Shown here: in pieces, positions 5,909 to 9,127 of the stretch
Numbering within the stretch: the stretch's first letter is position 1
Layout of the letters: the number at the start of each line of letters is the position of its first letter
Source of the DNA: Pseudomonas sp. PDM18
GTDB taxonomy: Bacteria; Pseudomonadota; Gammaproteobacteria; Pseudomonadales; Pseudomonadaceae
NCBI RefSeq assembly: GCF_014852585.1
Contig: NZ_JACVBX010000001.1
Location: 806,001 to 870,000 of the forward strand
DNA: 64,000 nucleotides
Direction of reading: 5' to 3'
The notes under the pieces: generated by a model
The model's input: only the letters and a program-made list of their open reading frames with translations
What the model was told of the DNA's origin: nothing
Databases searched by the model: none
Translations under genes and position numbers: made by a program

Positions 5909-6784
5909 ATGTCAGCCATTTCGCAGCTCGAAGTTTTCCAGTCGATGAACGCCTCGCCCAACGCCCGCCTGGAGCGTTGCGCGGAGCTGGGCGACGGGCT
6001 GTCTGCGGCGATCTGGAGCAACAGCCACGACGCCCGCGACTACCACGCGCCGAGCCATCACACGCTGTCCTGCTACCTGAACGACGGCACCGGCACCTTC
6101 CGCCGTGGCGCCCCCGGCACCACCGGTGCGCCGGACAAGCTCTGCGTGATGCCAGCCGGCGCCGAATCGGCCTGGATCGTTAACGGCGACATCCGCCTAG
6201 CCCACCTCTACATCGGCCAGGAACAGTTCTCGCTCGGCTGCATCCGCCTGCTCGACCGCGAGCCGCGCGAACTGCAACTGCACGAACGCACCTTCCTCGA
6301 CGACCCGCAGCAGGCCGCGCGCTTCCGCCAACTGGTGAAGCTGGACTGGCACGAGCCGGGTGAACGCATCCGCACCAGCACGCTGGCCCACGACCTGATC
6401 GATCACCTGCTGCTGAACCAGGTCGGGATGCGCGAAGGCTTGAAACTCAAGGGCGGGCTGGCGCCGACCATGCGCCGGCGCATCGCCGACTATATCGAGC
6501 AGCGCCTGGACCAGCCGCTGTCGCTTGGGGAGTTGGCGATGCAGACGGCGCTGTCGGAATACCACTTCGCGCGGATGTTCCGCGAAAGCTTCGGGATGCC
6601 ACCGCACCAGTACGTCCTGGCCCGCCGCGTGGCCTTGGCGCAGCGCCTGCTGCGCGATACCCGCCAGCCGCTGAGCCAGGTCGCCCTGGCTTGCGGCTTC
6701 TCCAGCGCCAGCCACTTTGCCAACCGTTTCAGATCGGTGGTGGGCGGGACGCCGGGGGAATATCGGCAGGCGTTCGAGGAGTAG
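5909..6784 (+). CDS. AraC-family transcriptional regulator
   Basis: The protein has 291 residues. An N-terminal cupin-like sensing region covers about 1-180 with no obvious metal motif. The C-terminal double HTH spans about 185-285: LSLGELAMQTALSEYHFARMFRESFGMPPHQYV, then LSQVALACGFSSASHFANRFR, the classic AraC signature. It is divergent from the EamA exporter at 4878-5771 and is inferred to control it. A start GTG or ATG further upstream is not available in frame with comparable support. Confidence 0.92.
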   Translation: MSAISQLEVFQSMNASPNARLERCAELGDGLSAAIWSNSHDARDYHAPSHHTLSCYLNDGTGTFRRGAPGTTGAPDKLCVMPAGAESAWIVNGDIRLAHLYIGQEQFSLGCIRLLDREPRELQLHERTFLDDPQQAARFRQLVKLDWHEPGERIRTSTLAHDLIDHLLLNQVGMREGLKLKGGLAPTMRRRIADYIEQRLDQPLSLGELAMQTALSEYHFARMFRESFGMPPHQYVLARRVALAQRLLRDTRQPLSQVALACGFSSASHFANRFRSVVGGTPGEYRQAFEE

Positions 6785-6814
6785 ATCCTCTATCGACTAC
6801 CTGCACTTACACGG

Positions 6815-6837
6815 TTCGCGAGCAAGCTCGCTCCTAC
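6815..6837 (+). repeat. Single REP element
   Basis: A 23-nt canonical Pseudomonas REP reads TTCGCGAGCAAGCTCG and ends CTCCTAC, just after the AraC stop codon. It is unpaired: the inverted partner that makes a REPIN is not found within 200 nt. A half-site resembling its end (ctcgctcctacga) occurs near 7226-7238. Confidence 0.85.
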
Positions 6838-6868
6838 GAAGAGCACCTCCTCCCGGCTCTGGCTCTCG

Positions 6869-7137
6869 CTCTGAAGTCGTCCAGAGAAATGTCCGCACGC
6901 GCCGAACGCCCCGTTCAGGAGGCCTCGGTGAAGCGGAGTTTCAGGGGTTGAGCGACATGGATGTCGCGAGAGCCGCGATGGGCCAGGGATGGCCCTTCGT
7001 GGGGGGGACGCCTAGTTCGGGCCCCTGAAACTCCGATTCAACGAGGGAATTTTTCGCCCAAGCGAAAAACCGAATGTCCGGGGCAAGACCTTTGCCTACT
7101 TTGCGTGGGGCGGCCATCCGTCGTTTGGCAAAGTAGG
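6869..7137. other. Multi-hairpin non-coding element, candidate structured RNA or repeat
   Basis: The 496-nt gap between the AraC gene and the DUF3325 operon holds at least six self-complementary units. They are CTCTG/CAGAG (6869-6886), GAACG/CGTTC (6904-6916), an outer stem CGGAGTTTCAGGGG at 6934-6947 pairing perfectly with 7022-7035, TTTTTCGC/GCGAAAAA around CCAA (7050-7069), CCTACTTTGC/GCAAAGTAGG (7095-7137), and hairpins inside the outer stem. Those inner hairpins are GCGACAT/ATGTCGC (6952-6967) and GGGCCA-GGGA-TGGCCC (6980-6995), the latter with a GNRA-type loop. Short open frames cross it on both strands, but none looks like a protein family. I recall similar stretches recurring in Pseudomonas genomes. 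Strand and function are unknown. Confidence 0.65.
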
Positions 7138-7280
7138 TCGCCCGAGGGGGCGAAACAGGAAGCCTGCGCGTACGCCGAAGCGGCGCAGAAACATCCAACC
7201 ACAAGCAAGAACATCGCGGGCGTACCTCGCTCCTACGAGACGCAAAACTCCGTCGCTGGCCTGGTACGCGAGTAAAAGTC

Positions 7281-7604
7281 TCAACCCAGTACCGCCAGCA
7301 CGCCCCCAATCACCGGCATCGCCGCCGCCGTCGGCAACGCCCAGCGCGGCCGCCAGGCCAGCAGCAGGACCAGCGCGGCACCGGCGATCATCAGCAGGCA
7401 CGCCCAATAGACGATGCCCAGCTCAATCCCCATGCGGTGAATCGAATAGCCCAGCGCCAGCGCGCCATCCACCAGCGCGGCGATACGCAGCAGCCGCGCG
7501 CGAGCCTGCGACGGCGCGCCGCCGAACAGATCTCGATGATGGCGCGACAGCGACAGGCAGGCCGCCGCCAGCGCTAACAGGTTGAGACCGAATACCAGCA
7601 GCAT
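7281..7604 (-). CDS. DUF3325-type small membrane protein of an iron-regulated operon
   Basis: The 107-residue protein is mostly hydrophobic: one helix at the N-terminus (MLLVFGLNLLALAAACLSL), a second around VDGALALGYSI, a third around VYWACLLMIAGAALVLLLA, and a short C-terminal helix. It fits the DUF3325 family that accompanies PepSY membrane proteins in siderophore loci. Its ATG overlaps the stop of the PepSY gene by 1 nt (TGATG), so translation is coupled. It is the last gene of a three-gene operon behind a Fur box. The function is unknown; a role in ferric-siderophore reduction or release is inferred from context. Confidence 0.8.
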   Translation of the reverse strand: MLLVFGLNLLALAAACLSLSRHHRDLFGGAPSQARARLLRIAALVDGALALGYSIHRMGIELGIVYWACLLMIAGAALVLLLAWRPRWALPTAAAMPVIGGVLAVLG

Positions 7605-9127
7605 CAGGCGTACTCCTCGTCACGGACGCGGCGTGCGCGTGCGGGCTCGATGCGCTCCTGTCCCAGGCGCCAGCCGAGGAAGGCGCAAATACCTCCGATC
7701 AACAGCAGGCCGAGATCGATGCCGACCATCATCCAGTCGCCGTTGGCGAAATGCGTCGTCACCCGACCAGGTTCGGGGCCGAACAGGCTCAGCACCGGCA
7801 GCAGCAGCGCCAGCGCCGACAGCGCAACGAACTGCTCGCGGGCCATGGTGCGGCTGCCACGGCGTAGCAGCGCGTGGGCCAGCGCCAACAGCCAGATCAC
7901 CACGAAGGCGGCGGCTTCCCAGCGCGTGCGCTGGAGCAGGTCGGCCGGCAGCAGGCGCGACGCTGCCAGCAGGCCAAGGGAGGCGATCGGCAAGCCGCCG
8001 CAGACCGCGCCGTTGAGCGTGCGCACCAACGCAACGCCACGGTGGCCGCGCCCTTCACGCTTGCTGACCCAGACCTGCAGGCCGCCGAATACCATCACGC
8101 AGCCCACCAGACCAAGGACGAAATACATCACCCGCAACAGCTCGTTGCCGAACTGCGCCATGTGCAGGCCGGTCAGCCAGGCGTAGGTCTTGTAGCCCGG
8201 CTTATAGGGCTTCTGTATGTGCAGCAGCGCGCCGCTGCCCGAGTCGAAGGAGACGGTGCGCTGGTCGTTGACCATGCTCTTGTCGATCGCCTTGCGGATC
8301 TGCACCATCGCCGCGGCGTCACCCGGATTCTCGACGTTGATCCAGCCGACCTGGCTGTCATCGCCCCAGGCCTCGCGGGCCTTGAGGATCATGTTGTCGA
8401 TGGACTTGGTCGCCTTGGCCGGCTTGCCCAGCGCCTCACGGTCGAAGGCGCCCTGCACGTCATGGAAGAAGTGCTCCATGTCGTTCTTGTAGGCCACCTT
8501 GATGCCGGCGGTCATATAGAAGGTGATGAAGATCGCCAGCCCTGTGTAGGCCATCAGCAGATGGAACGGCAGGCCCAGAACGCCCAAAACATTGTGCGCA
8601 TCCAGCCAGGCGCGCTGCTTCGCTGCCTTCGGGCGCAAGGTGAAGAAGTCCTTGAAGATGCGCCGGTGGACGATCACCCCGCTGACCAGTGCCACCAGCA
8701 TGAACACACCCGCAACGCCGACTACGTAGAGACCAAGCATGCCGCCATGCAGCTCGTAGTGCAGTTCGAGGAAGAAGTTGCCGCCAACGGTCTTGGGCAG
8801 CACCTCGCCGCTCTGGGCGTCCACCAGGAAGGACTGGAACTCGCTGAAGTCGGCCGGCTCCCAGCCTGCCGTCCAGTAGGGCATGCGCTCGGTAGGCGGG
8901 TGCATCCAGTAGCCATGGGCCTTGGGTGCGCGCTGGACGATCAGCTCGCGCACCTGGTCGGCGCCTACCTTGACCTGTTCCAGCTTGTGCAGCTGCGGGG
9001 TCATCCAGCGCGTGAGTTCCTTGTCGAACACCGCGACGGTGCCGGAGAACAGCACGACGAAGAGAATCCAGCTGACCAGCAGCCCGGCCCAGGTGTGCAG
9101 GCCGGACATCGATTGACGCAGGCTCAT
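7604..9127 (-). CDS. PepSY-associated membrane protein (putative siderophore-iron reductase component)
   Basis: The 507-residue protein has the PepSY_TM plan. The first helix comes after SLRQSMSGLHTWAGLLVSW. A periplasmic domain follows (about 50-150), then helices with the family's His-containing stretches (LHYELHGGM, DAHNVLGVLGLPFHLLMAY), a second periplasmic domain, and several C-terminal helices. The ATG at 9127 lies in an ATGA overlap with the DUF3649 stop and fits the domain start; the frame extends 28 codons further without support. Related proteins such as FoxB and PiuB are implicated in inner-membrane handling of ferric siderophores. The Fur box ahead of the operon agrees. Confidence 0.88.
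   Translation of the reverse strand: MSLRQSMSGLHTWAGLLVSWILFVVLFSGTVAVFDKELTRWMTPQLHKLEQVKVGADQVRELIVQRAPKAHGYWMHPPTERMPYWTAGWEPADFSEFQSFLVDAQSGEVLPKTVGGNFFLELHYELHGGMLGLYVVGVAGVFMLVALVSGVIVHRRIFKDFFTLRPKAAKQRAWLDAHNVLGVLGLPFHLLMAYTGLAIFITFYMTAGIKVAYKNDMEHFFHDVQGAFDREALGKPAKATKSIDNMILKAREAWGDDSQVGWINVENPGDAAAMVQIRKAIDKSMVNDQRTVSFDSGSGALLHIQKPYKPGYKTYAWLTGLHMAQFGNELLRVMYFVLGLVGCVMVFGGLQVWVSKREGRGHRGVALVRTLNGAVCGGLPIASLGLLAASRLLPADLLQRTRWEAAAFVVIWLLALAHALLRRGSRTMAREQFVALSALALLLPVLSLFGPEPGRVTTHFANGDWMMVGIDLGLLLIGGICAFLGWRLGQERIEPARARRVRDEEYA

Follow-up and report, generated by a model that had tools for sequence, protein, structure and literature searches.

A dispersed, insertion-polymorphic, REP-associated TwoAYGGAY repeat in Pseudomonas as a candidate Rsm decoy

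In Pseudomonas sp. PDM18, an intergenic repeat in the window (the whole stretch of 64,000 nucleotides analysed here) is one of many genomic copies built around a TwoAYGGAY RNA core. The repeat is best explained, with a probability of about 0.53, as a mobile, dispersed, REP-associated TwoAYGGAY element whose RNA, read from the + strand, would serve as an Rsm decoy. The window copy occupies about 6855-7205 (~350 bp), extending on both sides beyond 6869-7137, and every hairpin arm that a preliminary description had placed in the latter interval is present in its position (Table 1). With REP-like sequences at both edges, the repeat takes up the intergenic space from an araC-type ORF (5909-6784, + strand) to a reverse-strand ORF (7281-7604).

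Table 1. Features of the repeat copy in the PDM18 window (positions of the window)
Feature	Position	Strand	Remarks
REP-like sequence, 5' edge, GGTTCGCGAGCAAGCTCGCTCCTACGA	6813..6839	+	tail GCTCCTAC
5' hexanucleotide tract (GGCTCT/GGCTTT)n	6855..6872	+	repeat number differs between copies
Conserved body of dispersed repeat, profile positions 2-279	6880..7187	+	nhmmer 296.6 bits, E 3.8e-90, the window copy itself being among the sequences used to build the profile; 25-copy alignment
Conserved 5' GGA segment, TTCAGGAGG	6914..6922	+	copy alignments
TwoAYGGAY (RF01731) core RNA, full-length model match	6915..7054	+	cmscan 35.7 bits, model 1-168
Outer stem, 5' arm (14 bp perfect at 6934-6947)	6923..6947	+	
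Hairpin 1, loop AUGGAU (ANGGAN)	6952..6967	+	GGA 6959-6961
Hairpin 2, loop AGGGAU (ANGGAN)	6973..7002	+	GGA 6987-6989
15-nt insertion	7003..7017	+	carried by 6/25 aligned PDM18 copies
Outer stem, 3' arm	7022..7046	+	
TTTTTCGC/GCGAAAAA hairpin	7050..7069	+	4-nt loop
3' hairpin CCTACTTTGC/GCAAAGTAGG	7095..7137 (arms 7095-7104/7128-7137)	+	helix 11
Small hairpin TCGCCCGAGGGGGCGA	7138..7153	+	helix 12
REP-like sequence, 3' edge	7213..7238	+	same orientation as the 5' one

The perfect 14-bp stem (6934-6947/7022-7035) is the inner section of a 25-nt inverted repeat, the two arms of which are 92% complementary. Hairpin 1 is formed by GCGACAT/ATGTCGC. Hairpin 2 contains GGGCC-AGGGAT-GGCCC at 6980-6995, and its 4-nt core, GGGA, is the loop previously termed GNRA-type. 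The GGAs of both hairpins are separated by 25 nt. The + strand of 6850-7150 folds to -148 kcal/mol, compared with a mean of -125.8 kcal/mol for 100 shuffles (z -4.5, 0/100 as low), and the antisense strand behaves similarly (z -4.1, 0/100 shuffles as low). Because both strands fold, folding alone does not set the sense strand. Upstream of the outer stem, the TTCAGGAGG segment at 6914-6922 is a possible extra RsmA contact. At 7070-7081, the window copy reads CCGAATG where most copies conserve CCGGATG, so the GGA of that segment has been lost here. Furthermore, the 3' hairpin alternates between copies among the paired sequences CCTACTTTG, CCTTCTTTG, TTCCTTTTG, and TTACTTCTT, with compensation and with optional loop inserts of ~15 nt. 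The hexanucleotide tract is greatly expanded in one copy (L134, 1570-1964), and may be useful as a variable-number marker.

The core of the window copy matches RF01731 end to end, and it carries the two adjacent AYGGAY-type loop hairpins within an outer stem that characterize this family; its second loop, AGGGAU, is strictly ANGGAY, not AYGGAY. The covarying stems characteristic of RF01731 are likewise found in the copies of the repeat. The score of the window copy (35.7 bits) does not reach the gathering score of 43 bits; the PDM18 genome contains at least 21 RF01731 matches, with scores up to 62.3 bits, above the cut-off. The 15-nt insert accompanies the shortfall, with three other insert-bearing PDM18 copies scoring 37.0-40.0 bits and copies without the insert up to 62.3 bits. 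Since the window copy falls short while its sister copies exceed the cut-off, it is regarded as divergent, belonging to a repeat of which the sister copies count as RF01731 members. The class is thus already described, and the proposal of a new repeat family, for which the preliminary description itself named a match to a known element class as the counter-argument, has to be withdrawn at the family level. Compared with the RF01731 model, the repeat adds a second, 3' hairpin module and the REP edges, and the window copy also the 15-nt insert. Gardner and Eldai are reportedly the authors of the proposal that RF01731 binds CsrA. TwoAYGGAY RNA was reported by Weinberg et al. (2010, PMC2864571) with no function assigned to it, and was proposed in 2015 as a CsrA-binding sRNA, an idea presented there as untested (PMC4333381).

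The expectation that the element is dispersed in Pseudomonas was borne out by counting copies in PDM18 and in other genomes of the genus. A search of the PDM18 genome with the window repeat gave 85 matches, of which many are short alignments of one arm with another. Of the 29 copies that a profile search resolved in the best 29 PDM18 loci (of which L027 duplicates L007), 25 are nearly full-length, L023 is truncated, and L022, L026, and L029 are without the TwoAYGGAY core. In the coreless copies, the deletion extends between short TTCA repeats flanking the big palindrome, junctions that would be expected of replication slippage. The 25 aligned copies share a common sequence from the GGCTCT/GGCTTT tract to about GCAGCA, corresponding to 6855-7205 in the window. 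An exact-pattern scan of named genomes found at least 110 stretches; among the matches listed, 80/80 are from Pseudomonas, with P. nitroreducens, P. pseudonitroreducens, P. nicosulfuronedens, and other Pseudomonas strains as carriers. With 73 candidates scored per genome, so that the counts are lower bounds, at least 20 of 25 same-genus genomes have RF01731 matches, at least 16 have matches above the cut-off, at least 10 have 20 or more matches, and the highest count is at least 60. In another genus of the same family, two genomes, presumably of the P. putida/fluorescens group, have 69 and 74 matches. Across a phylum sample of 398 genomes, 35 contain an RF01731 match (28 above the cut-off), 34 of these in the same class, and none of 14 control genomes does. 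TwoAYGGAY is dispensable, because three of the 29 PDM18 copies are without the core and five of the 25 same-genus genomes gave no match among the candidates scored.

Carriage by plasmids or phages was rejected. The window copy has no match in either the plasmid or the phage collection, and a related repeat of G315, searched with its flanks, matches three plasmid records, one (138 nt) overlapping the core and the other two matching a flanking gene, and, partially, three phage records. The exact 29-base core pattern occurs in three contigs of the viral collection. One such contig of 30 kb (L340, IMGVR_UViG_3300002854_000009; core pattern at position 8688 of the contig segment retrieved) is possibly a prophage with host flanks.

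In Pseudomonas, the loop of hairpin 1 reads A.GGA in 91/91 copies that have the hairpin (it is missing from one of 92), and that of hairpin 2 in 90/92. Outside the genus, one hit was taken from each of the 26 genomes, among 31 positive ones, for which the locus was returned. Two GGA hexa- or pentaloop hairpins with at least four Watson-Crick pairs are present in 22 of these 26 hits, and the stem sequences differ. The loops comprise AUGGAU (26), AGGGAU (8), AUGGAC (5), ACGGAU (3), AGGAC (3), AGGAU (2), and AAGGAU (1), so that the second position of the loop may be occupied by any of the four nucleotides or be lacking. The gap between the GGAs is 21-27 nt, and exactly 25 nt in 14/22. No two such hairpins occurred in 5200 mononucleotide shuffles or in the 26 antisense strands. 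The presence of GGA loops among RF01731 hits is partly circular, because the loop consensus is itself built into the model of the family; the informative evidence is the variable or missing second loop position together with the constant spacing. The published CsrA/RsmE target is an ANGGAN hairpin loop with the SELEX consensus RUACARGGAUGU, and a single dimer can connect two sites separated by 10-63 nt, spacings above 18 nt being the most favourable (PMC7652899). The paired ANGGAN hairpins of the window copy, 25 nt apart, lie within this bridgeable range, as in Csr/Rsm decoy sRNAs.

The element had been put forward as a candidate multi-branch structured RNA distinct from a simple REP or terminator, and the covariation of its stems supports this view. 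In an alignment of 57 copies, drawn from the profile-resolved copies, the compensatory double changes sought in the stems are found in 15/56 predicted pairs. The covariation score is 0.225 versus 0.098 in shuffles (0/500 as high), and drops to 0.029-0.060 if the pairing partners are slid; the number of further pair types (48 versus 48.2 in shuffles) is the one of five covariation measures not above the control. The helix richest in compensated pairs is helix 11, the 3' hairpin, with 6/9 pairs.

The sense strand was addressed by wobble pairs in 92 distinct copies, on the premise that pairing in DNA alone would make G-T and A-C mismatches equally frequent. Where the folds of the two strands predict the same pair (39 pairs), there are 30 G-U against 13 A-C cells (13 against 5 sites). 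In the 40 interior pairs, the sites number 19 G-U against 5 A-C and the cells 142 against 105, the latter being nearer parity because as many as 92 of the A-C cells come from one minus-strand pair. If each strand is evaluated with the fold predicted for it, the + strand has 371 G-U against 19 A-C cells, and the minus strand 512 A-C against 52 G-U cells (21 against 17 sites). This bias merely follows the fold used and carries no weight for the choice of strand. The consensus energy is -89.8 on the + strand versus -69.1 on the minus strand. Taken together, the G-U excess in the shared pairs and the more stable + consensus favour an RNA read from the + strand with moderate strength, the strand test being mixed and not decisive.

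In the genomes of relatives, the repeat is present at some orthologous sites and absent from others. Matching flanks of the window site exist in 15 genomes of the genus. The element is in the + orientation in four (PDM18, G009, G023, and G010, the last split across two contig ends), in the minus orientation in two (G022 and G024), absent from six (G006, G007, G015, G003, G001, and G005), where only 84-231 bp of REP-like or other palindromic sequence is found, and not resolvable in three (G012, G014, and G018). Ten genomes were searched for a second site, where G010, G023, G009, and G008 carry the element, G006, G007, G013, and G022 are without it, and two are not resolvable; a third site shows mixed presence, with one inverted copy in G015. 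Visual inspection of three sites revealed no target-site duplication.

The copies are linked to REP sequences. A REP tail, GCTCCTAC, lies within 130 nt upstream in the same orientation in 61/98 copies and in the opposite one in 12/98; within 160 nt downstream, the corresponding counts are 55/98 and 6/98, and both sides carry a tail in 37/98. In random 130-nt flank windows, which are mostly coding, the tail was found in 0 and 5 of 381. In G315, a REP end is situated 174-191 nt past the core in 17/17 single copies examined (of 69 matches, with three paired loci left out), and an upstream REP in 10/17. The PDM18 genome encodes a single Y1 transposase (26.5 bits against a cut-off of 23), which on reading appears RAYT-like. 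A spread of the repeat driven by REP/RAYT would fit this linkage, and is offered only as a hypothesis because no duplication was seen. The repeat is not itself a REP or REPIN, which is a 20-40 bp palindrome or inverted pair as a whole unit; it is far longer (~350 bp), its REPs are confined to the edges, and there is an RNA core inside it. Families R0-R200 of Silby et al. 2009 (PMC2718517) resemble the repeat in being dispersed, palindromic, and intergenic with a tail-tail bias, and R200 (320 bp) and R26 (352 bp), compared by description only, are similar in length; either may be the same as this repeat.

Loci with two separate copies, some of them partial, were also noted (L007, L070, L119, L123, L134, L136, L157, L160, L162, L164, L165, and L166). 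The two copies, approximately 80-415 nt apart, are inverted in 12/12 of these loci, and head to head (minus then +) in 10/12. Minus-then-+ pairs also occur in other genera (e.g., G401, G219, and G207) and in G373, and direct pairs in G305, G266, and G191. In addition, L023 (1715-1835) and L029 (1607-1727) are cut at the same point past the 3' hairpin by the same sequence, which is identical as far as the contig ends (121 nt), as if one insertion sequence targets the repeat; the situation is reminiscent of the palindromes that flank ISPpu8 in P. putida (PMC7937890).

The apparent mobility of the repeat also suits a purely selfish DNA element of the MITE- or REPIN-like kind, with ssDNA palindromes, GGA loops recognised by a transposase, and RNA as an incidental product, which is the strongest rival and is considered unlikely. 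Dispersal, insertion polymorphism with both orientations at one site, the REPs at the edges, the single RAYT-like gene, and an even strand relation to genes are all compatible with it, as is the strong folding on both strands, where the predicted pairs of each strand favour that strand. Nevertheless, the excess of G-U over A-C cells in the shared-fold pairs on the + strand speaks against such an element, as do a loop consensus and spacing kept across genera despite different stems, and no terminal duplication was seen.

The decoy reading is further constrained by the genomic context. Among 99 copies from seven genomes, which for the genomes other than PDM18 are a subset of the copies, 96 have both neighbours called (by simple GC periodicity, with paired copies counted separately): 58 lie between convergent genes, 19 are co-directional with the RNA, 18 are against it, and 1 is between divergent genes. 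With only 1/96 between divergent genes, the copies are not leaders, and the cis-regulatory reading was rejected, although the Rfam type of RF01731 is Cis-reg. A cargo or partner gene was also rejected, as the flanking ORFs of copies in four genomes include no protein common to more than three loci. The even strand relation to co-directional neighbours (19 versus 18) implies that read-through would yield antisense as often as sense RNA. In 6700-7350, no sigma-70-like promoter and no + strand terminator-like site were found; the minus strand has one terminator-like site, at chance level (0.7 in shuffles), and a terminator or promoter reading was therefore rejected.

The convergent bias (58/96, against 1/96 divergent) would also be expected of a 3'-end boundary element, namely a terminator, an RNase-resistant end, or a transcription roadblock kept between convergent genes, and a tail-repeat-tail bias is known for other P. 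fluorescens repeats (PMC2718517). However, any inserted repeat would show the same bias, the orientation is even in co-directional contexts, and the + strand provides no terminator-like site, so this function is rated as quite improbable.

Like the decoy sRNAs CsrB/CsrC and RsmX/Y/Z, the repeat has more than one GGA hairpin of the ANGGAN type, an arrangement fit for holding CsrA/RsmA dimers, but it has only two strong sites and occurs as tens of dispersed copies rather than a few genes, and it lacks a GacA box and a + strand terminator-like site. The PDM18 genome separately encodes RsmZ (98 bits), with a perfect GacA box (0 mismatches), and has one csrA hit. In 100 scanned entries (98 distinct copies), no GacA box was found within 2/12 mismatches of the consensus, the best having 3/12. 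Because the GacA box is missing, a Gac-controlled Rsm sRNA gene was rejected; RsmV and RsmW are likewise independent of GacA (PMC7366521). Meanwhile, a search for a TwoAYGGAY-positive genome without csrA, intended as a falsification test, found csrA in 35/35 positive genomes versus 220/398 in the whole sample, evidence that is weakened by confounding with shared descent. That the RNA binds a different protein instead of RsmA/CsrA, or works in trans as a base-pairing sRNA, is a low-probability option: conserved loops and structure would suit any loop-binding protein, but the tolerated variation is CsrA-like (any nucleotide or none separating A from GGA, a closing C-G, and paired sites), and csrA accompanies every positive genome of the sample. 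In P. putida KT2440, pull-downs with RsmA, RsmE, and RsmI recovered intergenic sequences related to the flanks of ISPpu8, including one 'long palindromic' region (PMC7937890); ISPpu8 is listed as an IS4-family element of 1419 bp (PMC3056050). A possible link between these palindromes and TwoAYGGAY copies is suggestive.

For the Rsm decoy, the proposed mechanism is as follows. A branched stem would present two short hairpins with A(N)GGA(U/C) loops at a distance of ~25 nt, which would allow a single RsmA/CsrA dimer to bind the two together. Low-level transcription of the copies, most of which lie at 3' gene ends, would come from read-through or weak local promoters. The copies would then act as distributed Rsm-binding sites, either as decoys drawing off RsmA or as cis-acting 3' sites, and the unit would have spread with REP sequences as a non-autonomous mobile repeat, presumably by transposition. 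Such a decoy-like working of the repeat is plausible. A further-reaching and tentative idea is that, in Pseudomonas genomes in which the repeat has working Rsm-binding RNA, 20-70 copies would form a distributed, evolvable RsmA sink, the size of which differs between species, tuning or parasitising the Gac/Rsm switch.

What is new here is that Pseudomonas TwoAYGGAY is a high-copy, REP-associated, insertion-polymorphic repeat, located mostly between convergent genes without strand bias and lacking the GacA box that RsmZ has; to this are added strand evidence of moderate strength that points to an RNA, and a conserved distance between the two CsrA-type loops. In the literature searched, which included few subscription papers, no description of this REP-associated high-copy Pseudomonas form as TwoAYGGAY was found, and the searchable literature yielded no test of the proposed CsrA-binding function of RF01731. 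Its occurrence as tens of insertion-polymorphic copies in pseudomonads amenable to genetics makes the question of TwoAYGGAY function testable. Should RsmA bind the copies, their number alone would determine how much of this global regulator stays free, and a selfish repeat would have become part of the Gac/Rsm switch.
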